Positions 1 to 16,329 of a stretch of 64,000 bases of DNA are shown here, in pieces (positions within the stretch are counted from its first letter, which is position 1; every line of letters begins with the position of its first letter). The stretch is from an uncultured bacterium (lineage in GTDB: Bacteria; Bacteroidota; Bacteroidia; Chitinophagales; Chitinophagaceae). A program made the position numbers and the translations under genes. Where the stretch lies: contig CAIKEH010000013.1 in the NCBI GenBank assembly GCA_903826405.1, forward strand, positions 1 through 64,000, written 5' to 3'. A model generated the notes under the pieces. It was not told the origin of the DNA, ran no database searches, and saw only the letters and a program-made list of their open reading frames with translations.

Positions 1-1147
1 CAGTGACCCATCCCCTGTTCATGGCCTCAGCTATACTGTAGCATACTTCAGGATAGCTGATGATGAAGGTAGGCTCACCTGTCAATCCAGAATAATACTT
101 TTTATAGTTCAGGAAAGAGATTTTACCCTGTGCAGACAAAGACGCCATACTACTTAGGTCCTGACCCAGATCCGCACCCTTGAAGGAACGGTAATCCGTA
201 TCCTCGAAGCCAAGGCCACGGGCGGGTTCTGCAAGGTACATGGCACGGATATCATTCAGATCACTGAGGTTATTTAGTAATGTTCCACCGACATTCAACC
301 TTCCCGCATCATTACCATAATTATTGCTGTTGTTGGGGTAGTAGTTGTATTTGTCGTTATACACATATTGCAGGTTGTCGCTGTTGCTGGTGAAGATGGG
401 ATACTGAGCAGGATTGTTGAAGATCGCCCCAAAGCGGGATTTGACATTGAGATCCCCGTCATCAGCTTTCTTGCTCAGGTCGATCAGGAGTCTGAGTGCG
501 TAGCTGTTCACTACTTTCCTCCATTGAACGAGTGCATCATACCCATTACCGCCACCATAAGCACCGCTGAGCGCCTCTTTGAAATAGAAGTCACCAGAGA
601 ATTCCTTTACACCGCTACTGAGAACACTGGAAAGGATGATATTGGCGGAATCCAACCAGTTTAGGGATTGAAGGAAGATCTGCTTCTGTGAATCGTATTT
701 GGGCTTGATGTTCGCTGTACCCTGAAGTGCCTCGGTCATGGGCAGGTCCCCCACCTTCTTGGACATTTCAGTGAAAAAGTATGCACGTAGAAAAAGTCCC
801 AGAGCATGATATGGGTTGTTACTGCTTCCGTTCGCATTATAAGCCAGTTCCTCCATGGAGATCACGTTGTTCAAAACGCCATAGGAAAGACCCGCACTTC
901 CATTCCAATATTTGTTATCACCATAATAAGTATAGTTGGAAACATAGAACTGGCATGCCTTGTCCTCTTCACCACCTGGAAAAGTAACAATATTGTTGAG
1001 AACACCTTTTAGCACCACGCCTGAAGGCACGCTCGTGGGCAGGTTCTTGTTAAGTGAATATTCCTCAAATTTTTTGGAACAACCCGTTGCTCCTACGATC
1101 AGCAGGGCAAGGGCGACCATATTTATTTTAAATGCTTTCATATTCAT
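1..1147 (-). CDS. SusD/RagB-family outer-membrane lipoprotein (partial, continues past the left edge)
   Basis: Own reverse-strand translation from ATG at 1147: MNMKAFKINMVALALLIVGATGCSKKFEEYSLNKNLPTSVPSGVVLKGVLNN...; lipobox Cys, and directly downstream of a SusC gene. Open to the window edge, so absent from the ORF track. Confidence 0.85.
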   Translation of the reverse strand, partial: MNMKAFKINMVALALLIVGATGCSKKFEEYSLNKNLPTSVPSGVVLKGVLNNIVTFPGGEEDKACQFYVSNYTYYGDNKYWNGSAGLSYGVLNNVISMEELAYNANGSSNNPYHALGLFLRAYFFTEMSKKVGDLPMTEALQGTANIKPKYDSQKQIFLQSLNWLDSANIILSSVLSSGVKEFSGDFYFKEALSGAYGGGNGYDALVQWRKVVNSYALRLLIDLSKKADDGDLNVKSRFGAIFNNPAQYPIFTSNSDNLQYVYNDKYNYYPNNSNNYGNDAGRLNVGGTLLNNLSDLNDIRAMYLAEPARGLGFEDTDYRSFKGADLGQDLSSMASLSAQGKISFLNYKKYYSGLTGEPTFIISYPEVCYSIAEAMNRGWVT

Positions 1148-1177
1148 GATTTTTTCTGGTTCTTGATTGATCCTTGA

Positions 1178-4100
1178 TTAAAATACCACGTTGATGTTGA
1201 AACCAAAGCTCCTGGTTGTAGGTGTCTGCAAATTGTATTCTCTGCTCACACCACCGAATACATCACGGCCGGGATACTGGTCAACATCGATATCATGGAA
1301 TGCCTTGGGGAAGAAATAGATGAGGTTCCTGCCCACCAGGGAAAAATCAACCCTGCTGATGAAAGTCTTGTCCAACAACTTGCCGGGCAAGGAGTAGGTG
1401 ATAACCACTTCACGGAGCTTGGCGTAAGTCTTGCTCACCATGGTATGCTGGGGGTCGTTGTAGAAACTGCTCACATAGTCCTGAACCCACTGCGTAGCTA
1501 CCTTGTTGGGAGTGAACTGCAGACTCTTACCGTTGGTGATCACACCTGTTGCGGGGTCGTACTGAATCTGATCACTACCGCCTACGACGACGACACCATC
1601 AGCGCCCAGAATGGGAGAACCATTGGAATTATATGCTCCTGTGTATCCAGCATCACCCCAGTGATTGGATTCATACAAACGAGCCGCACCGATGACGCCT
1701 TCGTTGGTGTTTGCTCCACGTCCACCTTCAGTGAGTTTGCGGAGAACACGATCCTGTAACCTTCCACCGACCATGCCATCGAACTGGAATCCAATGCTGA
1801 ATGATTTATAGGTGAACTTGTTATGAATGGCCCATGACCAATCCGGATCGGCATGCCCCAGGTATTGACCCTTGGGGAGGTAGATGGGGAATCCACCTTC
1901 ATCATGAATGACCTTGCCATCGGGAGTGAGCGCTTCAAATGAACCGAAGAGCTTGTCTACGCGATCACCGATATGATAGGGGTAACCGGTACCATTGGAG
2001 ATCTCTGTCTGACCACCCGCGAAAGAGGCAAATGTCTCTTTATAGGTTGCCCAGTTGACCATGACATCCCAGCGCAAGCCACCTTTGGACTGAATGGGAG
2101 TTCCGGTCAAAGAGACTTCAGCGCCTGTCCTCTTCGTGGTACCACCATTTGTGGTGAAGTAATTTAGGCCGCTGGCTTCGGAAATGGATTGGTTGAAGAT
2201 CTTCGGGCCATCCTGATACTGGAACCAAGTGGCACTAAGACCTAATCTGTTCTTCAGGAAACGCATGTCGAATCCTGTTTCGAAGTTGGTCCTTGAAGTT
2301 GGCTTGATGCCGGCATCGATCCTGTAATTAGGAGAATTGGCCGCTGTGGCATTGTCGTAGCCATAATAGGTCAGGTAGGGAGGGTTTGCCAATTGGTAGT
2401 TCGGACCATTATATGGGGTAAAATAGCTGTTTCCATAACCAAGTGGGCCACCTACGCCGAGGCTCTGGAAAGCTGCGCCTATATATGGGCTGGTACCACC
2501 ATCCTTCACATTCACATAGGCTGCGCGAACCTTCAGGAAAGTTATCGCAGAAGGCAGATCGATATAATCGCTGAGGACCGAGCTGAACGAAACAGAAGGA
2601 TAGAAATAGGAATTCTTTCCAACAGGCAGTGCCGAAGTTTTGTCCAGACGGCCAGTTGTGGAGATAGTGAAATATTTCTTGTAGGTCAGGTCCACCGAAT
2701 AGTATGCACTCAGCTGCAGCAGATCTGAAGCGAATGAATAGGCGCGTATCGGCTTCATGGTGTTGGCGAAAGTGTACACATTGGGAACAATCAATTGGTC
2801 CGTGCTCACAAAGCTGGAGTTGTACCTCATGGTCCTCGCAGATCCGCCGCCGTAAGCACTTAAACTGAAACCACTGTTCAGGAAATTGTCCTTGTTATAA
2901 CGAACCAGTAATTCCGAGTTGTTCTCCCAAAGGCTTCTTCTATCTTCCCTGTAGTTGCCGTGGTTATGCTCATCCCCATAAGGGTGGGCGGAGAAAGGCA
3001 TTTTCTCATTTCTTAAGATGTCATAGGTCGTAACATTGGAACGAACCATAACATCCAGATCCTTGTTGAAACGGTAGGTAAAAGCCATCCATCCATACAC
3101 ATCGTTCTTCTTGTGACCCCTGAGCCACTCATAACTCTGGAAGTATGGATTGTGATAACGCTTGTACTCCACGAAGTTGGACTGAACACCTTCTTTACCG
3201 GGCTGCCAGTAATTGATGATGTTCGGATCCTTGACATTCCAGTCAGCACCGGTCCAAATATCAATATTGTAGATAATGGAGTTGGGGCCGTAGACAACAT
3301 CAGGGATATTATTCGAATTCTGATGGTTGTAGTTGATGTTCGCCTCAACTTTGAATTTGCTTGTGATATCGTAGCTGCCGATCAAATTCAGGTTCTGCGT
3401 GTTCAAGCCGGTGTTCGGAGTGATGCCGCGCTGGTATCCATTGGAAACCGACATCCGGATATTGGACCTGTCGGTAGCTGCTGAGAAACTAACGTTTGTC
3501 GTGTTGAGCAGACCAGCCTGAAGGAATTTCTGAAGATTGTCCTTTCCGCGGGAAACCCATGGAGTAGGCTCTATATTCCCGGTGAAAGTGGATCCGTCAG
3601 CAAATGTGGTGACGTAGGTTTTATTGGGATCATACTTGCCGTCGTATTGCGGAAGAAGAAGTCCAGCATCCAGACGGGGGCCCCAAACGTCATAGTCTTT
3701 ATCATTACGTCCGGATCCAGTACCGTTACTGTTGTAGTCACCGAAGGCAAACGTCTGATAATCACCGCCACCATATTGATTTTGCACCTTGGGTATGGCT
3801 ATGAAACCTTTGTTGATCTGAAGGCTGTTGCTCAGCTCAACGGTGAATCCTTTATTATTTTTCTTACCCCTCTTAGTCGTGATGAGGATGGCGCCGTTGA
3901 TACCGCGGCTTCCATAAAGGGCGGCGGCGGTGGGGCCTTTCAACACGGTGTAGGTCTCGATGTCATCGGGGCTGATGTTCCAGGTATCTGAGTTGATGGG
4001 GATACCATCCACTACATAAAAGTTCAGGGGTGAACCGCGAAGGAGCACGGTGGGTGCAGCCAGCAGTTCCTGATTGATACCCACGTTCAGGCCAGCCACT

Positions 4101-4552
4101 TTACCTACCAATCCATTCACCGGGTTGGGTTCACGGGCTTTGAGCAGATCAGAACCCTTGACCTCCTGGACAGAATAACCCAGGCGCTTGGTTTCCTTCT
4201 TGATGCCCAAAGCGGTCACTACCACGTCACTCAGGATCTTGGAATCCTGATCAACTCCTATGACCAAATTGTTGTCGGATACAGTCTTTTCAAAAGGCTG
4301 GATACCTACTCCGGAGAACTGGAGCACATCCCCTTTGTTGGCACGAATACTGAATGTACCATCGGCATTCGTCGAAGTCCCTTGCTTACTCCCTTTCACG
4401 ACCACGGTGATGGCCGAAATAGGAGTTTGATCAGCATTGGAAAGAATCTTTCCGGTGATGATACCCTGTGCTTGCAACAGATGCGGCACAAGCAAGACAA
4501 AAAGGGAAAGAAAGAACAACTTACTGGATCTAGCTAATGCATGCATAAACAT
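1178..4552 (-). CDS. SusC/RagA-family TonB-linked outer membrane protein
   Basis: 1124 aa; signal peptide, CarboxypepD_reg-like N-terminal domain (GIITGKILSNADQTPISAITVVVKG), plug domain (VLKGPTAAALYGSRGINGAILITTKRGK), C-terminal beta-barrel. Confidence 0.95.
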   Translation of the reverse strand: MFMHALARSSKLFFLSLFVLLVPHLLQAQGIITGKILSNADQTPISAITVVVKGSKQGTSTNADGTFSIRANKGDVLQFSGVGIQPFEKTVSDNNLVIGVDQDSKILSDVVVTALGIKKETKRLGYSVQEVKGSDLLKAREPNPVNGLVGKVAGLNVGINQELLAAPTVLLRGSPLNFYVVDGIPINSDTWNISPDDIETYTVLKGPTAAALYGSRGINGAILITTKRGKKNNKGFTVELSNSLQINKGFIAIPKVQNQYGGGDYQTFAFGDYNSNGTGSGRNDKDYDVWGPRLDAGLLLPQYDGKYDPNKTYVTTFADGSTFTGNIEPTPWVSRGKDNLQKFLQAGLLNTTNVSFSAATDRSNIRMSVSNGYQRGITPNTGLNTQNLNLIGSYDITSKFKVEANINYNHQNSNNIPDVVYGPNSIIYNIDIWTGADWNVKDPNIINYWQPGKEGVQSNFVEYKRYHNPYFQSYEWLRGHKKNDVYGWMAFTYRFNKDLDVMVRSNVTTYDILRNEKMPFSAHPYGDEHNHGNYREDRRSLWENNSELLVRYNKDNFLNSGFSLSAYGGGSARTMRYNSSFVSTDQLIVPNVYTFANTMKPIRAYSFASDLLQLSAYYSVDLTYKKYFTISTTGRLDKTSALPVGKNSYFYPSVSFSSVLSDYIDLPSAITFLKVRAAYVNVKDGGTSPYIGAAFQSLGVGGPLGYGNSYFTPYNGPNYQLANPPYLTYYGYDNATAANSPNYRIDAGIKPTSRTNFETGFDMRFLKNRLGLSATWFQYQDGPKIFNQSISEASGLNYFTTNGGTTKRTGAEVSLTGTPIQSKGGLRWDVMVNWATYKETFASFAGGQTEISNGTGYPYHIGDRVDKLFGSFEALTPDGKVIHDEGGFPIYLPKGQYLGHADPDWSWAIHNKFTYKSFSIGFQFDGMVGGRLQDRVLRKLTEGGRGANTNEGVIGAARLYESNHWGDAGYTGAYNSNGSPILGADGVVVVGGSDQIQYDPATGVITNGKSLQFTPNKVATQWVQDYVSSFYNDPQHTMVSKTYAKLREVVITYSLPGKLLDKTFISRVDFSLVGRNLIYFFPKAFHDIDVDQYPGRDVFGGVSREYNLQTPTTRSFGFNINVVF

Positions 4553-4833: not shown

Positions 4834-5985
4834 TCAAACAGCTTCCTGAAACAGGTATGGGCCGTCAACTGTATGGGGCTTGGGCAGAAATCCATGCAAA
4901 AAACTCAAAAGTCTGTCCGGGCAAGACAAAACCCAATCGCGATACTGATCAGGTATATGATGTCCCGATCTGGTGATGTTGATAAGCTGATTCATGTCGA
5001 AGGTTGAGCCCTGTAGCCCGGCTCCCGCTTCCTGAGCTTCCATGGCATTGCAGCGCTGTTCAAAATGACCTTTGACAGGTACCATGAAAATAGGTTTCCC
5101 CAAAAACATGGCTTCACATACCGTCTCAAAACCCGCGGTGGTGGCCAGGCCGCTGCAACCTGCAAGCTGCTCCAGGAAAACAGTTCCGTCCAAACTGTGA
5201 AAACTGAGTTTGGAGTCAACCTGCCAATACCCAAAATGTTCCTCGCGAACCTCCCGGCTGTCCGTGAAACAACGGAGATGAACCTCGGGGTTCTCCCGGT
5301 GCCATTCGAGAATATCTTTCATGTATCCGCTGTTGACCAAGTATACAAGTAGGTATCCCTCATCCCTGCTGTGCAGGGACAGCAATTCCCGACGAAGAAT
5401 GGGAGGAACCGTATACAACTTCTTACGCGGACAAGAACCAGAATCAGAAAGTGAAATCGCCAGACAGGAATTCGAACCCAGCTTGGTCAATTTCGTATAA
5501 GCAAGAATGCCGAGCTTATGCAAGGACTTGCTGAGAGGAAATCTGTGTTCGGGATGAAGATAACTATATTGATGGGCGATGCAGACTACAGGAGGATGCC
5601 CTGAATATGAACCAGCATACAAGCCTACAAGGGGTTCATAAAAATTGAGGATCAGATCTGGTTCATGAAAATCCACCAGCCTTTTGAATAATCTCACGCT
5701 CCGGATATATTCCGGTAGCATCAAAAGGTTTTTGATCAGTGTCCTTCCCATGTGGATGCCTCGACCATGACGGTCCATGAAAAAATTCGGACTCTTCATG
5801 GGAACCACCGGTTCATTGAAGGACTTCTTGAAAAACTCGGGTAATTCCCGTCGTGAACTCCCCCCAACCACTACACAACAGACTTCAAACCCATTTCGTG
5901 TAAGCAGTTCATACATCGAAATGGCTTGGGTCAGGTGGCCTCTGCCCTCACCCTGAACAGCGAACATGACACTTAAAGCCTTCAT
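4834..5985 (-). CDS. Glycosyltransferase family protein (MurG/UGT-like fold)
   Basis: 383 aa; MFAVQGEGRGHLTQAISMYELL N-terminus and a GFETVCEAMFLGKPIFMVPVKGHFEQRCNA donor-binding motif typical of GT-B enzymes. Confidence 0.8.
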   Translation of the reverse strand: MKALSVMFAVQGEGRGHLTQAISMYELLTRNGFEVCCVVVGGSSRRELPEFFKKSFNEPVVPMKSPNFFMDRHGRGIHMGRTLIKNLLMLPEYIRSVRLFKRLVDFHEPDLILNFYEPLVGLYAGSYSGHPPVVCIAHQYSYLHPEHRFPLSKSLHKLGILAYTKLTKLGSNSCLAISLSDSGSCPRKKLYTVPPILRRELLSLHSRDEGYLLVYLVNSGYMKDILEWHRENPEVHLRCFTDSREVREEHFGYWQVDSKLSFHSLDGTVFLEQLAGCSGLATTAGFETVCEAMFLGKPIFMVPVKGHFEQRCNAMEAQEAGAGLQGSTFDMNQLINITRSGHHIPDQYRDWVLSCPDRLLSFLHGFLPKPHTVDGPYLFQEAV

Positions 5986-6011
5986 GTGATATCGTTTATT
6001 TCACAGCATGA

Positions 6012-6860
6012 TCATGCAAACTCCTCCAGCAATTCCCCAGCGCCCATGAGATCTTTGATCGCGAGGTCAAAATCGATTCCCTCTTCTTCGGTATGAACTT
6101 CATTGACCCAATCCTGGTATCGAATGATCTTCCATTCCCCTTCTTCCGTCTCCACCAATGCGCTCAGTGTTTCGACCCAATCGCCGCTGTTCAGATATTG
6201 AATCCCATCCACGATCTTGACCGCTGGATGATGAATATGGCCACAAATGACCCCATCGCAACGCTCTTGCCTGGCCACAGCACACAACTCGGATTCAAAA
6301 TCGGTCATGAAGGAAACCGCTTGCTTGACCTTGTGCTTGACCACCTGTGAAAGGGAGTAATAGGGCAAGCCTTTGTTCTTTCTGAAGTTGTTGTAGTGAC
6401 GGTTCACCCACAGTAGGAACGTATATCCCACATCTCCCAACTTGGCCACCCATTTCAGGTTGGTTGTGACGGAATCAAAGATGTCTCCGTGCACCACGAA
6501 ATATTTTTTACCAAAAGATTGGTGAATATGGGTCCTGACTATGGAAAAATTTCCGATCTCTAAAGGCAGTATCTCATCCAGAAAGTCATCATGGTTGCCT
6601 CTTAAGTAGATGATCTCCGTTTCTGTTGTGGAAAGCCATTTCATGACTAGCCTGAAGAAGGCAGTGTGCTTCTTCTTCCATTTTCCCGACTTGCCCAATT
6701 GCCAGCCGTCGATGATATCACCATTTAGGATGAGCTTGTCGCAAGTGTGGTGCTTGAGGAAATGAATGGCTTCTCTGGGGTGGGCGTTGCGGATGCCCAA
6801 GTGGATGTCGGAGAGTACGATGGTCTTGTAGTGTGTTTTCACTATTCCGGGTTTTATCAA
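6012..6860 (-). CDS. Calcineurin-like metallophosphoesterase, LpxH-like (UDP-2,3-diacylglucosamine diphosphatase family)
   Basis: Motifs SDIHLG, NGDIIDGW, RGNHDD, VHGDIFD, CGHIHHP. Confidence 0.85.
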   Translation of the reverse strand: MIKPGIVKTHYKTIVLSDIHLGIRNAHPREAIHFLKHHTCDKLILNGDIIDGWQLGKSGKWKKKHTAFFRLVMKWLSTTETEIIYLRGNHDDFLDEILPLEIGNFSIVRTHIHQSFGKKYFVVHGDIFDSVTTNLKWVAKLGDVGYTFLLWVNRHYNNFRKNKGLPYYSLSQVVKHKVKQAVSFMTDFESELCAVARQERCDGVICGHIHHPAVKIVDGIQYLNSGDWVETLSALVETEEGEWKIIRYQDWVNEVHTEEEGIDFDLAIKDLMGAGELLEEFA

Positions 6861-6995
6861 AGTTTTAGCATGAGCATGAACAAATCGTTTCGAGATGGTT
6901 AAGAAATGATTAAGACAAGGCGTATCTGGAATTCATTCACTTTTCATTCACATCGGGATAACCGTAGATTAATAGTATTTCCATCGGTTTGTATC

Positions 6996-7640
6996 ATGAG
7001 TACAAATCGTATGTTTTGGGCCATCCCATTGATGTCGTTGATATCCTGCATGCATGATCAGCCGGCCATGCCGATACCGGTTGACAAAATCTGCTTTCAA
7101 CGCCAGGTCCTCCCTCTTTTCGTGAATTATTGCAGCAGGGTCGAAGGCGGCTGCCATGATGCTGGGAATCCACGGATCTCACTGGTTGATCATGCCGGCA
7201 TCATGCGGGGGATACAAGAAGGGAATGCTGATGGCAGTTGGTTCTTCCACACCATCGGATTGAGCATGCCGCCGGGTGCAGAACCACAGTTGAATGCAGA
7301 ACAGGTCGGGATCATCAGAAAATGGATAGATCAAGGTGCTCCGAATTCCAATTGTGAAAACCTCCCGTGTGATACGAGTAGATTGACCTATTCAAATTCC
7401 GCTTCGGCCATTTTCTCCAATTATTGCAATGGCTGCCATGATTCATGGGTTTATCCGAATGCCCTTGGCTTCTCCTCGTATGACCGTGCCAAAAATTCCA
7501 TCAGCGCCGATCCGGAAAAATTCCTGCGCAGCATCAGGTACAGCGCAGGGGCACAGAAGAATATGCCCCCTTCCTGCGAAATGAACCCATGCGACCGGAT
7601 GAAAATCGAAAGCTGGATCAACAGAGGTATGCCTTATTAG
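6996..7640 (+). CDS. Predicted lipoprotein with cytochrome c-like Cys-His motifs
   Basis: ORF 6906..7640, likely start ATG 6996 (MSTNRMFWAIPLMSLISCMHDQ lipobox). Contains YCNGCHDS (CXXCH) and YCSRVEGGCHDA. Confidence 0.6.
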   Translation: MSTNRMFWAIPLMSLISCMHDQPAMPIPVDKICFQRQVLPLFVNYCSRVEGGCHDAGNPRISLVDHAGIMRGIQEGNADGSWFFHTIGLSMPPGAEPQLNAEQVGIIRKWIDQGAPNSNCENLPCDTSRLTYSNSASAIFSNYCNGCHDSWVYPNALGFSSYDRAKNSISADPEKFLRSIRYSAGAQKNMPPSCEMNPCDRMKIESWINRGMPY

Positions 7641-7695: not shown

Positions 7696-9366
7696 TTACT
7701 TGTTGAAAACTGCCCATCCACTTGTCCAGTCCGTGCTATTATCAAAAGCGCCGACGTAAGCGACCTTGTCAAAAAAAGCATCGGCAAGTGTTCCAAAATC
7801 GAATTTGGCTCCTGCGAGTAGAGGTGAACCTCCCTGAGGTTTGAGATTGGGAGCTGCATTGTTGAACGGATCGCCCAGTTGAAGGGTGTTCGGATCGGTC
7901 ACGATCTGTGAACCATAGACGCTGGTCAACCTATTGGCTACTGCAGCTGAATCATAAACCAGATTAGGGATATTCAGGCCGGAAACGACATCCACAACCT
8001 TACCCAGCGCAGTGTGGAAATAGCTGTTGTAAAAGGCACTGGTTCCACGCTGATGATATGCGATCGTTGAATCCTCTTGAAGACGGAAACCACCTTTTTG
8101 TGAACCTATGACAACGGAATTGGCAAGGATGAACTTAGTTCCTCTCCTCCAGCGCATGCCCCATCCATAATCCGAGGAGGTTCCTGGAGCGTTGTTGGGA
8201 CCAATGGCGGTGAAATTGGAAAGTACAGGGAACGTAATGGGAGCCCTGCTCAGGACGAAGCCGTTGGCAGGATTCACATTATCCACTTCAAAATTATTCG
8301 AAACATCACCAGTGGTTCCTTTGGGATCGGTGAACTTGGGGTCTTTGATGGAGATGGCGAACTGGATCTTCCCGGAATAACCGTCGTCCATATCATAATC
8401 ATCATCTGCACTGTTGTAAGCGATCAGATGCTTGCAGTTGACAGTGCCTCCGAAAAATTCAAAAGCATCGTCCAGGCCACGGACCACTTCTACATAATCG
8501 ATGGTGGTGGCATCACCCACCCCATAAAGTGAAAGACCGTTCACCTCATCGCCTGGATTGACCGCCTTTCCAGCATATTCGATCCTCCAGTATTTGATGA
8601 CACCGGAATTGTCCGTTTTATTCGTGCCTCCGAAAAGTTCATACTTTGAATCCACGCCACCTTCGATCTTGGCATGGTTTCCATTACCAGGTGCTGCACC
8701 AGCAATGATGACACCACCAAAGTCACCGGGCGTAGGTGTTGTTTCGGCGGATGTGAATACGATGGGAGAAGTCTGAGTTCCTTCGGCCTGGATCTTTCCA
8801 CCACGGGTGATGACCAGTACGCCTGCGGAATCTTTATTGGAAATGATATTTGTTCCAGCTTCGATCGTAAGGGTAACACCATTTTCCACGTAAACATAGC
8901 CGCGAAGACGCCATTTATAATTTTTGGTCATAGTCAGGTTTGCATTGATCACGCCACGAATGTCAATCACGGAGCCATCAGCTGGAACGATCTTGAAACT
9001 TTCGGGAGCAGCGGGAGATGCAGGGGAAGTTGCGGAATTCTTGGCGCCGTCTTTGGAAGTGACGCGGAAATAATAGGTGGAACCTACGGCCAATCCGGGG
9101 AGTTTCACGCTGTGCGTGGTCACCAAGGTCGCATCAGTTACGTTGGAGCCTAAAGTAGCATCGGTGGTGCCATAATCCACACGGCTGTCACTTGCTTCAT
9201 TCGTTGTCCATGTGACCACTGCGGAGCCATCACTGTTCGGTGTCGCAGTAACGGCTGAGATCGTTGGTGGAGTCACGTCCGGAGGAGTAACTGGCGTGTC
9301 CGATTTTTTGCAGCCCCAGGCCATGATCAAGGTGGCGAGAAGCAGCGAGGAAATTTGTTTTTTCAT
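7696..9366 (-). CDS. Fibronectin type III-containing surface lipoprotein, downstream of a TonB receptor
   Basis: 556 aa; lipobox MAWGC-KKSD; FN3-like SAVTATPNSDGSAVVTWTTNEASDSRVDYGTT...YYFRVTSKDGAKN; remainder repetitive and beta-rich. Confidence 0.7.
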   Translation of the reverse strand: MKKQISSLLLATLIMAWGCKKSDTPVTPPDVTPPTISAVTATPNSDGSAVVTWTTNEASDSRVDYGTTDATLGSNVTDATLVTTHSVKLPGLAVGSTYYFRVTSKDGAKNSATSPASPAAPESFKIVPADGSVIDIRGVINANLTMTKNYKWRLRGYVYVENGVTLTIEAGTNIISNKDSAGVLVITRGGKIQAEGTQTSPIVFTSAETTPTPGDFGGVIIAGAAPGNGNHAKIEGGVDSKYELFGGTNKTDNSGVIKYWRIEYAGKAVNPGDEVNGLSLYGVGDATTIDYVEVVRGLDDAFEFFGGTVNCKHLIAYNSADDDYDMDDGYSGKIQFAISIKDPKFTDPKGTTGDVSNNFEVDNVNPANGFVLSRAPITFPVLSNFTAIGPNNAPGTSSDYGWGMRWRRGTKFILANSVVIGSQKGGFRLQEDSTIAYHQRGTSAFYNSYFHTALGKVVDVVSGLNIPNLVYDSAAVANRLTSVYGSQIVTDPNTLQLGDPFNNAAPNLKPQGGSPLLAGAKFDFGTLADAFFDKVAYVGAFDNSTDWTSGWAVFNK

Positions 9367-9398: not shown

Positions 9399-12191
9399 TT
9401 ATTTGGAGAGGTTGATCTTTGCACTCAGGATGAAAGTGGTCCCCAGCCTGACTGAATTGATTACTTTGTCATTCGCTGGATCAAAGGCATTGTTCTTCGG
9501 GTTGGCATCGAACTTATAATACCAGTTGTAGGGTTGTGCCAGCAGATCGCTGATCGTCAGTTTGAGTTCCACTTTATCTTTCAGCACCTTCTTTGAAACC
9601 TGTGCATCAATGAGGTCACGTGAATTTTCGAAGATGTTCAACGCGCCACCGGTGACAGCTCTGTATTTCAATCTTGGGCCGATACGATTGTAAAGAATAT
9701 TGAATGAGAACCCATCATTGGGTGTCGAATAAGTCAGGCCGGCATTGATGAGATATGGCGACTGTCCCTGAAGTGGACTATTGAAATTCACGTTGCCGAA
9801 TTTCACGGAACCCTTTATGTAGGCGAGATTGGTATAGAATGTCAGTTGGTTGAAAAAATCTCCCCCAAGGAAACCAAGGCGTTTGCGTATCTCCAGTTCA
9901 GCACCGTATGCGGTAGCTTGAGTGGCATTCTCATAGGAAAGCACATCATTCCCTGCATTCACCTGTTCTATGGGGTGATCGAAATGCTTGTAGAAAACGC
10001 TGGCACTGATGATCTCACCTGAACCCGGGAAAAATTCATACCGCAGATCACCATTGGTATTTTTGCTTCGTTGCAGCAATGGATTGCCACGGATGACATT
10101 GTAATTCTCATAATCGAATACACTATAGCTGGCCAACTCACGGAACTCCGGTCTGTTGACCGCTTGTGAACCCGCCAACCGCAAATTGGTCTTGCTATTC
10201 AGTGACCAGGTGAGCAGGAAAGAAGGTAACACGTCCAGATCCTCCTTCTTGATGGTGGGTTGGTTCAACGCCTTCAGGTCCTGAGTGTATCTCTCCACAC
10301 GAACTCCACCAGTGAACTTCAAACTCCCCGAAATGAAGCCATCATACATGGCATAACCTCCGTTCATGAGAGCATGAGCCTTGTAATCCGTGGAGTTTGT
10401 GCCGATGGTGGCCAATGTGAGTCGGTATAGATCGATGTTGGCCGGATCAAAAAGATTGTTGAAGGTCTGATCCTTCGTCTCCTGGATGAGAATCCCATAA
10501 GGATCCAGTGTGGAATAACCCAAGGCGTCCACGACGACCTTGCGGTCACGATAATAATTGCTCAGACCGAATTTCAATTTCGCCTTTCTATTTCCTTTCA
10601 GGTCGTATGCGAAATTCACATTTGCACCATAGATGAATTCCTTCAGATCCGAATACACTCTACCAGCATTGCGGATCTCTGGTGAATTCTCATTGGCCAA
10701 TTTGATATAGTAATAACTGGAATCGTTGTTCGGGGTCCGGAAAGTGAGTACTTTTTGGTCCGGCTGGTGGCGGTAGGTGTATCCTACGGATCCGTTCCAG
10801 TCGAACTTCCACCTGTTACCCAGATTGTGAAGGCCTTCCAGGACCGAATTCAAGAGTCCATTCCCTGAAGCTTCGCTATTCTCACTTTTATAGAGAAAAG
10901 TATACGGGTCATTGGATCGGTCAAACCCTTTACGAAGGCCCAATGACCTGGAAAAATCGTTGTTGAAGATGTTCTTCCAGGAGATCTTGGACTGCCTGTA
11001 AGCATAGGTCAGGTTGAACAGGGCAGAGAGCTGGTTACGTTGATCATAATTATCCGTACGGTTCTGATACAGGTAGAACTTGTCGATCTGGTATTCATTT
11101 CTTTCCCTTTCCGAAACCTTTCGGGACGACCCGTAACCTATGGTGAGGATATAACCCAATTTCCTGTTCCTCTCCAGGATACGGGTATTTCCTGCAGTGT
11201 ATCCAAATGAAAAATTCGGATAGCTTCGATACGCGGGCGCTTGACCATAATCGTTTCCGAAATCCTTGGTGATGGCTTGTTTGGTCGCTGGTGGCTGATT
11301 GATGAATGAAGAGCCCCTATAGGGAATGTATGAAGCCGGTATTTCCCGGGAATCATCGAAAAATCCTATGGCATCATATTTCCCATCCGGGAATCCCTTA
11401 TAGAAATTCTTGAATGTGGTCAATGTATTATAACCCATGCCCAAGGACAATTCACTGATTGGTCTGGTGGGGTAGTCTTTTGTGCTGACTTTGATGGCGC
11501 CACCAGAGAAGTCACCGGGCAAGTCCGGAGTGGGTGACTTGTAAACGACCAGGTTATCTATAAGAGCGGAAGGAATAATGTCGAAGGCGAAAGCTTTCTT
11601 ATCTGGTTCCGTACTGGGGAGTACGGCATTATTCAGCAGGGATACATTGTATCGTTCATTCAAGCCCCTGACTATGACGAATTTATTATCCTGAACGGAA
11701 GCGCCAGAAACCCGTTTGAGCACATCACCCGTATTTCTGTCTGGCGACTTCCTGATGGCCTCTGCGGAAATGCCATCGGAAATGGAGGAACTGTTCTTCT
11801 GAAGTGCATATACGGAAGCCAGAGATTCCTTTCGAGAATTACTTCTGATCACCACTCCCTCCAACTCCTTACTTTTAGCCCTTGCAAGAGAAATATCCAA
11901 GTTTGCACCATTCTCTAATTGCAGATCGGATATTTCCTTTGTCTGAAAGCCTAAGCTGGATATCGTTAGGGTGTATTTCCTGCCTCTTTCCAGGATCAAA
12001 AAGAATCGTCCTTCTACATCAGTTGTTACCGTTTTGGCCGGATCGACAAGATTTACGGTGGCACCGGAAACGGGCGTGCTACTACCTTCTTCGAGTACTT
12101 TTCCCGAAATCCTGATCGTCTGAGCACGTACTGATACGGAAAATGCTATCAGCAGTGTCATACATAGGAAATGCATGTTGAGTCGGTTCAT
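9399..12191 (-). CDS. TonB-dependent receptor
   Basis: 930 aa; signal peptide, CarboxypepD_reg-like domain, plug (RNTGDVLKRVSGASVQDNKFVIVRGLNERYN), beta-barrel to the C-terminus. Confidence 0.92.
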   Translation of the reverse strand: MNRLNMHFLCMTLLIAFSVSVRAQTIRISGKVLEEGSSTPVSGATVNLVDPAKTVTTDVEGRFFLILERGRKYTLTISSLGFQTKEISDLQLENGANLDISLARAKSKELEGVVIRSNSRKESLASVYALQKNSSSISDGISAEAIRKSPDRNTGDVLKRVSGASVQDNKFVIVRGLNERYNVSLLNNAVLPSTEPDKKAFAFDIIPSALIDNLVVYKSPTPDLPGDFSGGAIKVSTKDYPTRPISELSLGMGYNTLTTFKNFYKGFPDGKYDAIGFFDDSREIPASYIPYRGSSFINQPPATKQAITKDFGNDYGQAPAYRSYPNFSFGYTAGNTRILERNRKLGYILTIGYGSSRKVSERERNEYQIDKFYLYQNRTDNYDQRNQLSALFNLTYAYRQSKISWKNIFNNDFSRSLGLRKGFDRSNDPYTFLYKSENSEASGNGLLNSVLEGLHNLGNRWKFDWNGSVGYTYRHQPDQKVLTFRTPNNDSSYYYIKLANENSPEIRNAGRVYSDLKEFIYGANVNFAYDLKGNRKAKLKFGLSNYYRDRKVVVDALGYSTLDPYGILIQETKDQTFNNLFDPANIDLYRLTLATIGTNSTDYKAHALMNGGYAMYDGFISGSLKFTGGVRVERYTQDLKALNQPTIKKEDLDVLPSFLLTWSLNSKTNLRLAGSQAVNRPEFRELASYSVFDYENYNVIRGNPLLQRSKNTNGDLRYEFFPGSGEIISASVFYKHFDHPIEQVNAGNDVLSYENATQATAYGAELEIRKRLGFLGGDFFNQLTFYTNLAYIKGSVKFGNVNFNSPLQGQSPYLINAGLTYSTPNDGFSFNILYNRIGPRLKYRAVTGGALNIFENSRDLIDAQVSKKVLKDKVELKLTISDLLAQPYNWYYKFDANPKNNAFDPANDKVINSVRLGTTFILSAKINLSK

Positions 12192-12345
12192 TTTTCGCTA
12201 GATAAGAGGGTCGAAAGTAGAGGCGCCTGATTACCGATAGATGAACCGAACGACAACAAAGAGTTAATCCAATATGAACAACACGTAACATTAAGTTCAT
12301 TTTTTTCTAACCGTAAAGTGATGTTCTGGTCACATACGATTCTCA

Positions 12346-12407: not shown

Positions 12408-13091
12408 ATGAGCCAAGCCCGTAAGATCCTGTTCATCAATGTCCCCAATGTTTTGATCCGGGACACTGAATCACTTTTAGCAGATGAGGGTGCCGCCGTG
12501 ATCAATTCATTCGGATTTCAGGACTGCATGCAAATGGCCAGGATCCACATCCCCGAGGTATTCGTTATAGCTGAATTGTCAGATGGCAACCCAAAAGGAC
12601 TGGAGACGATCAATGAGCTACGCGAAAACAGGATCTTTGACCGTGCGCTCATTTTATACATGACAGGAACACAGGGCGAGGAAAGCCAGATGAAGGCTTT
12701 CAATGCTGGAGCAGAAGACCTTTTGCCCCTGGACATCAGCGCCAAAGTATTGGCAACACGGATCTCATCGCTGATCAAGAGGCTCAACCGATCGACTGTA
12801 GGCATCGATCTTAATGGAAATTTCCATGTGAACCCGGAATCACTTTCCGTGACTATCCAAGGTAGACACATAGATCTGGTCCGAAAGGAGTTCGAATTGC
12901 TTCATCTACTTTGTTCAGCACCCAATCGTATTTTCTACAGAAAGGAGATCTTCAATCATATCTGGAAAGGAAGCCAGTTGAAAAATGACAGGACGCTGGA
13001 TGTGCACATCAGGAAGATCCGCAAAAAACTGGGCATTAAAAACATCAAGACCATCAACGGCGTGGGATACAAATTCGAATGGAATGGGTAG
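12408..13091 (+). CDS. OmpR-family response regulator with degenerate receiver domain
   Basis: C-terminal winged helix (VRKEFELLHLLCSAPNRIFYRKEIFNHIWKG...RTLDVHIRKIRKKLG...INGVGYKFEW); N-terminal receiver fold lacks the conserved acidic residues. Confidence 0.85.
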   Translation: MSQARKILFINVPNVLIRDTESLLADEGAAVINSFGFQDCMQMARIHIPEVFVIAELSDGNPKGLETINELRENRIFDRALILYMTGTQGEESQMKAFNAGAEDLLPLDISAKVLATRISSLIKRLNRSTVGIDLNGNFHVNPESLSVTIQGRHIDLVRKEFELLHLLCSAPNRIFYRKEIFNHIWKGSQLKNDRTLDVHIRKIRKKLGIKNIKTINGVGYKFEWNG

Positions 13092-13190: not shown

Positions 13191-14404
13191 TCAATCCTTT
13201 CCGAAAACAAAATAAAAAGTCAACCTGAAAACCAGGTCATGGCTTTTGTATTTTTTCCAGAGGACCGGGATTGACATATTTGTTCAACCAGATGTTCGGC
13301 ATGAAATGGACAAAAGATAAAGGCCTGCCGTGAAAAAACTTTCCTTGGTAACGGGATCATTATAGTTAGCCGTATGACCCACATATTTATTTTATACGGC
13401 ATTGTCGATCCTATTATCGGGATTGAACCGATCAAATCGCACAAACCATTTCAATCTTTTGGGGATGAACACCCCATTAGCGAATAGGGATATGCCCTTT
13501 GCCGTACCACTCCATGTATCCGTACCTACAGTTATCCTGGTCGCGAAATCTTCGTTTTTCAAGTTGTTGAGGTAGCCCTCTATTCCGAATGTGAATGCCG
13601 GAGTGGAATAGGAAGCGAAGCCCTTGATCATGCTCCTGGAATGATGCCAGGAAGGAATGTCGTTCAACTTCTCATAGTCTACATAAACATCGAAAGTCAA
13701 TTTCCTATTGATGAATAAAGCCCATACATCGGCATTGTACCACCTGAAATTGTCATTCTCCGGCCTGGCGCTCGTGCCATTTCCAGCCCTGACATAATAT
13801 CCGGATCTCCCGTCTTTCCCGTATTTGCACTGCACTGTGATCCCTGAATCACAGGAAGGAGTTCTACGTATATCTGTAACCCTCCAGTCAATGGGCCGAT
13901 ACCCCCAGATTTGCTCCGTAAAAATGGAATAAGCAGGTGTACCTACTTGCCCCAAAACGAGATCTGTCGCTTTCCAAATGTTCTTCCATCGCAGGTTGAT
14001 CAGTTTGATGTAAAAGGCGAGTTTAATATCAGCAAGGAATTCCCCGTTTGTAGTACCCGTTCCCGTGGTGATATAGTCCTCTGCCGCCAGCAGGATCGCG
14101 GTGCTGAACGTTCTGGAGATGTTGAAATCATAACCCAAATAGATCCACCTCATCTGGATTTTCGTGCGTCCCTGTGGTATGCTTGTATGTTGTTTGGATC
14201 CGCCACGTGCCAAAGTGTTTGTTTGGGGTTTATCATAGAGATCACCAAAAGCATAACCCCACAGGCGTCCAGTAGAGGGCTGCCCCTTTTGTACAGAGAA
14301 TCTGCATTCCTCAGGACCTGCGACAATAAAATGTTGATTACTAATAAATTAATAATTAAAATGGCCAAGGGCTTGACGGCGTCCTTGAGACTTTCCCTAG
14401 TCAA
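13191..14404 (-). pseudogene. Decayed outer-membrane porin-like gene (phosphate-selective porin O/P-like)
   Basis: Homology-like sequence runs across frames: signal-like segment in frame of 14404; GRLWGYAFGDLYDKPQTNTLARGG...IYLGYDFN in frame of 14213; in-frame TAA at 13392-13394; then NKYVGHTANYNDPVTKESFFTAGL, a frameshift to FVHFMPNIWLNKYVNPGP, and a shift back to DLVFRLTFYFVFGKD* ending at 13191. 5' boundary approximate. Confidence 0.75.
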
Positions 14405-14439
14405 ATGCGTGTTATTTCTTTCCTGTGAGAAAACACAAT

Positions 14440-14456
14440 GTTAATAAATTATTAAC
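14440..14456. promoter_or_regulatory. Candidate operator: perfect 17-bp palindrome GTTAATAA-A-TTATTAAC
   Basis: 8-bp perfect arms around one base, 60 bp upstream of the DUF47-PiT operon. Confidence 0.4.
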
Positions 14457-14491
14457 TATACAATAAGTCCCTCAAGGGTGGGCGTAAAATC

Positions 14492-14499: not shown

Positions 14500-14515
14500 C
14501 CAAAACTTGGAATCC

Positions 14516-15160
14516 ATGCTGAATTCATTCCTCAAGATATTCCTACCTAAAGACAGGGTTTTTTATGACCTTTTCGAGGAGGTCAGTGACAAGGTCAGGC
14601 AGATGGCTGCTTTGCTGAAGGAAGTGGTTTATGAACCCGATTTCGATAGGAGAACAGTCTTGATCGGGAAGATAGAGAACTTCGAACACCAGAATGATGA
14701 ACTCACCCACCGCATATTCACGGAATTGGGACGCAATTTCATCACGCCCTTCGACCGGGAAGACATTCACTATCTGGCCAGTTCGCTGGATGACATCGCA
14801 GATTACATATTCGCATCTTCAAAAAAGATCAATTTCTATCATGTCAACCCGCTGGACAGAGGCATGCAACGTTTTGCAGACCTCATCCTTCAGAGTTCTG
14901 AGCAGGTGCATAGCGCCGTCAAGGAACTGCGGAACATGAAGAATCTGCGCCTGATCACGGAATGCCTGGTCAAGATCAATAGCATAGAGAATCAGGCGGA
15001 CGACGTGTTCGACATGAGCATCGAACGCCTGTTCGCCGAGGAGCAGGATGCCAAAGAGGTTATCAAGATGAGAGAGATCTACCAGGTCATGGAGATTGCT
15101 ACGGACAAATGCGAAGATGCCGGCAATGTCATCGAGTCCATCATCGTTAAATACGCCTGA
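14516..15160 (+). CDS. DUF47 family (PhoU-like) phosphate transport regulator
   Basis: All-helical 214 aa MLNSFLKIFLPKDRVFYDLFEEVSDKV...DDVFDMSIERLF...MEIATDKCEDAGNVIESIIVKYA; immediately upstream of a PiT transporter. ORF track start is TTG 14507; ATG 14516 preferred. Confidence 0.9.
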   Translation: MLNSFLKIFLPKDRVFYDLFEEVSDKVRQMAALLKEVVYEPDFDRRTVLIGKIENFEHQNDELTHRIFTELGRNFITPFDREDIHYLASSLDDIADYIFASSKKINFYHVNPLDRGMQRFADLILQSSEQVHSAVKELRNMKNLRLITECLVKINSIENQADDVFDMSIERLFAEEQDAKEVIKMREIYQVMEIATDKCEDAGNVIESIIVKYA

Positions 15161-15201: not shown

Positions 15202-16329
15202 ATGACACTGCTTGCAGTCATCATCATACTCGCCCTGATATTCGATTATATCAACGGGTTCCATGACGCCGCGAATTCCATCGCCACAATCGTTTCTACA
15301 AAGGTACTCACCCCCTTTCAAGCCGTACTCTGGGCAGCCTTGTTCAATGTGGTTGCCTTTTTCATATTCAAGGATCATAATGTGGCGAATACGATTGCCA
15401 AAACCGTTCACAAGGACGTCATAACCCTTCCGGTGATCTTGGCAGGCCTCATTGCTGCCATCATCTGGAACCTCTTGACCTGGTGGTACGGCATACCCTC
15501 TTCTTCATCTCATACCTTGATTGGTGGTTTCGCCGGTGCGGCGATAGCTCATGCCGGATTCGGCAGCATCGAATTGGAAAAGATCACCAAGACGCTCTCA
15601 TTCATTCTGCTCGCACCCCTGATCGGCATGATCATCGCCATGTTCATCTCCATAGTGACGATTGTCAGGAACATCTGGCTCAAACTGGCCATCATCACTG
15701 CCGCGGTCACCCTTACTTTGTATTATATCGACTTCAATCCGATCATAAGATATGGATTGGTCGTGATGACCATCATTTTCTGTATTTCCTATCTGATCGA
15801 TGCTTTGAAAACGCCCAATGCCTACAGGACATCGAACATGTACAAAAGGTTACAATTGGTTTCTTCGGCAGCGTTCAGCATAGGCCACGGTGGGAATGAC
15901 GCACAAAAGGTCATGGGGATCATCGCTGCCGCACTGGTGGCTAATGGCAATATTCAAGACTTAAAGGACATGCCTTACTGGGTACCTATCGCCTGTTACT
16001 GCGCCATCGGACTTGGCACCATGAGTGGAGGATGGAGGATTGTGAAGACCATGGGCACCCGCATCACCAAAGTCACCCCTTTGGAAGGAGTAAGCGCAGA
16101 GACTGCAGGAGCCATCACCCTTTTCATGACGGAGAAATTAGGCATCCCGGTCAGTACAACACATACCATAACCGGTTCCATCATTGGCGTTGGTGCAACA
16201 AAAAGACTTTCCGCTGTACGGTGGGGAGTCACCGTCAACCTCCTTTGGGCATGGATCCTGACCATCCCGGTAAGTGCCATAATGGCCATGATCATCTATC
16301 AGATCCTGAAATTTTTCATGCACCTTTGA
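15202..16329 (+). CDS. Inorganic phosphate transporter, PiT family
   Basis: GFHDAANSIATIVSTKVLTP and IGHGGNDAQKVMGII signature repeats; polytopic membrane protein. Confidence 0.95.
   Translation: MTLLAVIIILALIFDYINGFHDAANSIATIVSTKVLTPFQAVLWAALFNVVAFFIFKDHNVANTIAKTVHKDVITLPVILAGLIAAIIWNLLTWWYGIPSSSSHTLIGGFAGAAIAHAGFGSIELEKITKTLSFILLAPLIGMIIAMFISIVTIVRNIWLKLAIITAAVTLTLYYIDFNPIIRYGLVVMTIIFCISYLIDALKTPNAYRTSNMYKRLQLVSSAAFSIGHGGNDAQKVMGIIAAALVANGNIQDLKDMPYWVPIACYCAIGLGTMSGGWRIVKTMGTRITKVTPLEGVSAETAGAITLFMTEKLGIPVSTTHTITGSIIGVGATKRLSAVRWGVTVNLLWAWILTIPVSAIMAMIIYQILKFFMHL

Follow-up and report, generated by a model that had tools for sequence, protein, structure and literature searches.

A probable pseudo-receiver paralogue of PhoB in a phosphate gene cluster of a Chitinophagaceae bacterium

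Here we report that a gene in a 64,000-nucleotide stretch of DNA from an uncultured Chitinophagaceae bacterium (the window), at positions 12408-13091 on the + strand, very probably encodes a paralogue of the response regulator PhoB whose receiver has become a pseudo-receiver. Pseudo-receivers account for about 6% of bacterial receivers, and their on/off switching in bacteria has been called a mystery (PMC12632262). This one is of particular interest because it belongs to a PhoB paralogue that sits among PHO-response genes, with a normal PhoB encoded elsewhere in the genome. Taken as a whole, our account is that an unphosphorylatable PhoB paralogue, encoded with a PHO-type TonB receptor operon on one side and phosphate-transport genes on the other, would bind PHO boxes independently of phosphorylation and dampen PhoB; we hold it tentatively, as falling slightly short of evenly balanced. 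As the pseudo-receiver paralogue, its working parent and a clear candidate motif occur in one genome, the proposal that a paralogue serves as a brake is directly testable. Both the PhoB paralogy and the phosphate gene cluster setting go beyond a first-pass annotation of the same DNA.

A receiver that has lost its phosphorylation site

The gene starts with ATG and encodes 227 amino acids with no internal stops. Its product comprises a pseudo-receiver domain (residues 1-126; 12408-12785, + strand) and a winged-helix DNA-binding domain (residues 133-227; 12804-13088, + strand). Alignment of the protein with the canonical PhoB of its own genome and 31 other PhoB proteins revealed that four of the five catalytic positions (DD, D and K) are lost. 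The Asp-Asp pair is replaced by N11-V12 (12438-12443, + strand), the acceptor place is occupied by Ala55-Glu56 with Asp absent (12570-12575, + strand), and the conserved Lys-Pro has become Leu108-Asp109 (Leu108 codon at 12729-12731, + strand). Thr86 (12663-12665, + strand), in an invariant column, is the sole catalytic residue retained. In addition, the conserved Pro after the acceptor is replaced by Gly60 and the aromatic residue of Y-T coupling by Leu105. The first-pass annotation, made from the letters alone, had already read N11-V12, Leu108 and the retained Thr86, and the alignment bears out all three, with Asp109 in place of Pro as a further change.

The degenerate receiver is not a matter of chance, since the aligned PhoB relatives retain the missing motifs, the N-terminal half scores only 17.6 bits with Pfam Response_reg (cut-off 30.2) against 77 bits (1.2e-21) for Trans_reg_C on the C-terminal half, and a Pfam search of the whole genome, with 29 other receiver matches listed, omits this receiver. 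These scores and residues agree with the earlier description of an OmpR-family regulator with a degenerate receiver. A frameshift is not supported as the origin of the odd receiver: the frame can be aligned to PhoB over its whole length, the differences being a single inserted residue and substitutions scattered along it.

AlphaFold2 predicted both the (beta-alpha)5 receiver fold and the winged helix-turn-helix fold to be intact (pLDDT 87), and the Foldseek neighbours of the predicted structure in the PDB are OmpR/PhoB regulators. By inspection, the charges of the alpha4-beta5-alpha5 face are partly retained (Asp104, Arg118 and Arg125). Having a receiver fold, lacking DD, D and K, and carrying a winged helix, the protein is an atypical OmpR/PhoB response regulator with a pseudo-receiver; this is a described class, of which ChxR, HP1043 and CosR have been studied, and the regulator adds a case to it, not a kind.

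The fold neighbours include RitR, a streptococcal redox regulator that evolved from a response regulator, and a review discusses direct regulation for pseudo-receivers generally (PMC12632262). The domain might thus now sense a ligand, a redox state or a partner protein, so that regulation would be direct without phosphate transfer; we consider this very improbable, as the sequence gives no pointer to a particular ligand.

The first-pass annotation had noted that no histidine kinase gene is adjacent, and indeed there are no HisKA matches in the window, the nearest on the contig lying about 100 kb away. With four of the five catalytic positions and the coupling aromatic lost and no kinase nearby, its suggestion of phosphorylation-independent control appears well supported.

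The acceptor position

Relative to the PhoB proteins, the regulator has one additional residue at the acceptor place. MAFFT, HMMER and HHalign all open the gap at Phe52 and align Glu56 with the acceptor Asp, and at precisely this point their confidence is low; the HHalign profile included the row of the pseudo-receiver itself and is not independent of the other alignments. In the AlphaFold2 models, the last residue of beta-3 is Ala55 in the pseudo-receiver and Asp56 in the genome's own canonical PhoB, whose numbering is one higher, so that the predicted strand would place Ala55 at the acceptor site and the additional residue in the loop that follows. The acceptor equivalent is therefore Glu56 by sequence alignment and Ala55 by predicted strand register, and Asp in neither, exactly the pair of choices that the first-pass annotation had offered. 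The structural comparison with PhoB that it had proposed did not restore an acceptor Asp either.

Its further suggestion, a constitutive Glu mimic of phosphorylation, is weakly supported. Glu56 is not upheld as a firm phosphomimic: the residue found depends on the method, with strand register favouring Ala55, the Lys that would support a mimic is gone (Leu108), and a review notes that for some pseudo-receivers such mimicry by Glu has been refuted (PMC12632262).

PhoB ancestry

The best curated family for the protein is Bacteroidota PhoB (NF053854), which it matches with 108 bits, far short of the 270-bit cut-off. Its best matches in relatives are canonical PhoB proteins. The genome encodes a canonical PhoB elsewhere (G000:C42:8790-9458), 37% identical to the pseudo-receiver protein (range 36-37%), and the gene for it adjoins a HisKA/HATPase kinase gene; because a separate canonical PhoB with a kinase exists, the 12408-13091 gene is a paralogue and not the PhoB of the genome. 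In a phylogenetic tree the pseudo-receiver protein fell on the PhoB side of a split with support of 97/94 that separates it from three further OmpR-type regulators encoded by the genome and from E. coli PhoB. The E. coli PhoB sequence was used for numbering and as this one outgroup row only. The end branch of the pseudo-receiver protein is extremely long, at 8.1 changes per column where the median is 0.18, and it joins another long row, so its exact placement within PhoB is unsafe; a tree-based origin within PhoB was for this reason rejected and not used.

Judged by its sequence, the protein is a fast-evolving, very diverged paralogue of Bacteroidota PhoB. It resembles the canonical protein and the NF053854 family in domain order, length, recognition helix and phosphate-gene setting, and differs in 37% identity and in lacking the catalytic residues, the polymerase-contact loop and a neighbouring kinase. 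Compared with what defines PhoB in NF053854, it shares common ancestry and falls short in score, in phosphorylatable receiver residues and in an adjacent PhoR.

A spared recognition helix and a diverged polymerase-contact loop

Divergence is distributed unevenly along the protein. Among columns with 90% or higher conservation across the other PhoBs, the receiver retains 18 of 53, whereas the winged-helix domain (77 bits with Trans_reg_C) retains 36 of 53, made up of 15/23 in its first part, 1/6 in the transactivation loop, 12/14 in the recognition helix and 8/10 in the wing. Recognition helix and wing together (20/24) thus differ from the receiver (P 7e-5, Fisher) and from the transactivation loop (P 0.005). 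The recognition helix, DRTLDVHIRKIRKKLG (12987-13034, + strand), is near-identical to that of canonical PhoB. The transactivation, or polymerase-contact, loop (12963-12986, + strand) reads WKGSQLKN against WGxDVIVG, with Gly replaced by Lys187 and Val by Lys192. The first-pass annotation had taken the DNA-binding domain to look intact, which holds for the recognition helix and not for this loop.

In E. coli PhoB, the transactivation-loop substitutions W184R, G185R, V190M and D192G abolish activation (PMC3973317; PMC3348028). In the pseudo-receiver protein, Lys stands at both of the positions that match G185 and V190, while the Trp and the Asp are retained, and a third Lys (Lys179) occupies the place equivalent to E. 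coli Glu177. By this analogy, the loop changes combined with a spared helix predict a protein that still reads PHO boxes and recruits polymerase poorly; the argument is carried from E. coli to a phylum with different promoters, in which even canonical PhoB lacks the acidic patch of the E. coli protein. At its strongest, the prediction would be a natural dominant-negative PhoB that has kept PHO-box recognition, has given up its phospho-switch as well as its polymerase contact, and acts as a decoy or brake within the phosphate-uptake cluster, a reading that we regard as doubtful.

An additional gene within a conserved phosphate cluster

Upstream of the regulator and on the opposite strand lies a gene for a TonB-dependent receptor with a CarboxypepD_reg domain (9399-12191, - strand), which has PHO boxes upstream in relatives, followed by its conserved partner, a lipoprotein-like protein with a purple-acid-phosphatase N-terminal/fn3 domain (7696-9366, - strand). 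Downstream are a decayed porin gene (13197-14330, - strand), a PhoU-like DUF47 protein (14507-15160, + strand; PF01865, 85 bits) and a PiT-type inorganic phosphate transporter (15202-16329, + strand; PF01384, 317 bits). The porin gene, traced by tblastn with the intact porins of two relatives (L084 and L082), contains two in-frame stops and has its N-terminal part in another frame. Intact relatives of this porin adjoin the orthologous TonB receptor in other genomes.

In relatives the cluster occurs without the regulator. The receptor stands opposite DUF47-PiT with no regulator between them in L086, L087, L092 and many of the 80 loci examined around TonB-receptor orthologues; porin and receptor are back to back, again without a regulator, in Ilyomonas limi; and a canonical phoB-phoR pair lies beside the receptor-lipoprotein pair in L095, L096, L097, L116, L121 and L178. 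The pseudo-receiver regulator is therefore supernumerary in a conserved phosphate cluster. Compared by gene kind, the cluster resembles the PhoBR operon of Flavobacterium johnsoniae, in which a glycosyltransferase, a porin, PhoB, a TonB receptor and a lipoprotein also occur together and in which the receptor and the lipoprotein respond to phosphate depletion with strong induction; the PhoB of that operon, in contrast, has a PF00072 receiver and adjoins PhoR (PMC8115612).

Selection and decay

None of the 80 receptor loci carried the regulator between the receptor and the phosphate transporter. Searches with strict cut-offs found no orthologue beyond canonical PhoB in 41 genus, 399 family and 399 order genomes (overlapping sets). 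When 299 family genomes were searched with the receiver alone, the best non-self matches examined were all canonical, and scanning the species collection for a pattern of the receiver alone found no orthologue. The first-pass annotation had proposed to check whether orthologues share the substitutions; with no orthologue in the searched sets, there is no conservation of them to point to.

The porin pseudogene next to the regulator means that this stretch is partly decaying and that decay has to be weighed for the regulator too. A phoB duplicate that lost its kinase and then selection, its substitutions being drift, would fit this neighbour, the lack of an orthologue in the searched relatives and the huge branch length. 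It fits poorly with an open frame: when the phoB of the same genome was mutated neutrally in simulation to 37% identity, about 5 stops arose on average and none in 0.3% of runs, whereas all 227 codons are open at about that identity. Strongly uneven change that spares the recognition helix, and folds predicted with good confidence, also argue against such decay, which we consider quite unlikely. The open frame and the uneven changes point to selection for most of the history of the gene, which does not imply present selection.

PHO-box-like repeats

Pairs of words with an 11-base period (for example TGTTA-TGTTA) occurred in 29-32 of 69 non-redundant regions upstream of the receptors, whereas shuffled sequences gave no more than 4. 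With the window left out of its training set, a position matrix found sites like TGTTAA-N5-TGTTAA, with the consensus AATGTTAACAAAATGTTAAC, in 67 of 68 receptor promoters of relatives, and the 25 best sites were all on the strand opposite to the receptor gene. We propose this 11-base direct repeat as a candidate PHO box of Chitinophagaceae and related families. The upstream regions of the TonB-receptor orthologues also have in common a promoter-like word, TACTTTTG (L082-L097, L100-L179).

The top match of the window is a TGTTAA-type repeat between the porin and DUF47 genes (14435-14460, + strand), which scored 20.8, the next match scoring 13.9; it may now serve DUF47-PiT. The exact pattern has six matches in the genome, this site among them, against five for the control, and is thus not evidence by itself. 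A PHO-box-like site (score 14.1) also lies upstream of the canonical phoB. The matches between receptor and regulator are weak sites and no more than suggestive: one faces the receptor in the orientation seen before TonB-receptor genes (12258-12283, + strand; score 9.4, P ~0.02 by shuffling), and another, with one strong half-site, faces the regulator (12280-12305, - strand; score 7.4, P ~0.008 for the half-site pair).

Proposed role and relation to known regulators

We suggest that the pseudo-receiver paralogue binds the PHO boxes of the cluster (TGTTAA direct repeats) without phosphorylation, which on present evidence seems somewhat probable, and that it would do so as a homodimer or as a heterodimer with PhoB. 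Because loop changes like those it carries leave E. coli PhoB unable to activate, we further propose, by analogy, that the bound paralogue would modulate PhoB at this locus, competing with or dampening it instead of activating; this sign of effect is possible, although we lean slightly against it. How much of the protein is made would then determine its activity, and the weak PHO-box-like repeats upstream of its gene might control this.

The loop also bears on the opposite sign. The paralogue could instead be a constitutive activator like ChxR or HP1043, acting as a homodimer independently of phosphorylation, perhaps aided by Glu56, and keeping the cluster expressed whatever PhoR senses. CosR and HP1043, both atypical regulators, are among the Foldseek neighbours, several pseudo-receiver regulators are constitutive dimers (PMC12632262), MAFFT and HMMER put Glu56 in the Asp column, and the repeat at 14435 together with the intact recognition helix would supply a target. 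Such an activator is nevertheless unlikely, since the transactivation loop has diverged where E. coli PhoB needs it for activation, there is no longer a Lys to help hold a Glu mimic, and the strand register points to Ala55.

HP1043 of Helicobacter and CosR of Campylobacter are, like the paralogue, orphan atypical OmpR/PhoB regulators, and are among its structural neighbours; both, however, are essential regulators, and neither is a PhoB paralogue beside a working PhoB. WhiI and BldM of Streptomyces have a DNA-binding domain of a different class from that of the OmpR/PhoB paralogue. For the hypothetical heterodimer they provide a precedent of an atypical regulator working in this way (PMC12632262). 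ChxR of Chlamydia shares the OmpR/PhoB architecture and the absence of the acceptor Asp and other active-site residues (PMC3960148). It is, in contrast, a shown constitutive homodimer and activator unrelated to PHO genes, and we do not claim orthology with the paralogue.

Other genes of the window

Beyond the lipoprotein gene, the phosphate cluster also includes two paired genes, for a PlcP-like metallophosphoesterase that is a candidate for phospholipid remodelling (6012-6860, - strand; PF00149/PF12850) and for a glycosyltransferase (4834-5985, - strand; PF13528). The pair (4834-6860, - strand) is a candidate for phosphate-saving remodelling of membrane lipids. Between the phosphoesterase and the lipoprotein is a gene for a protein with a weak cytochrome c (CBB3-type) match (6906-7637, + strand). 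A large TonB-linked receptor (1124 amino acids) followed by a lipoprotein, SusC/SusD-like in appearance, occupies positions 2-4552 on the - strand.
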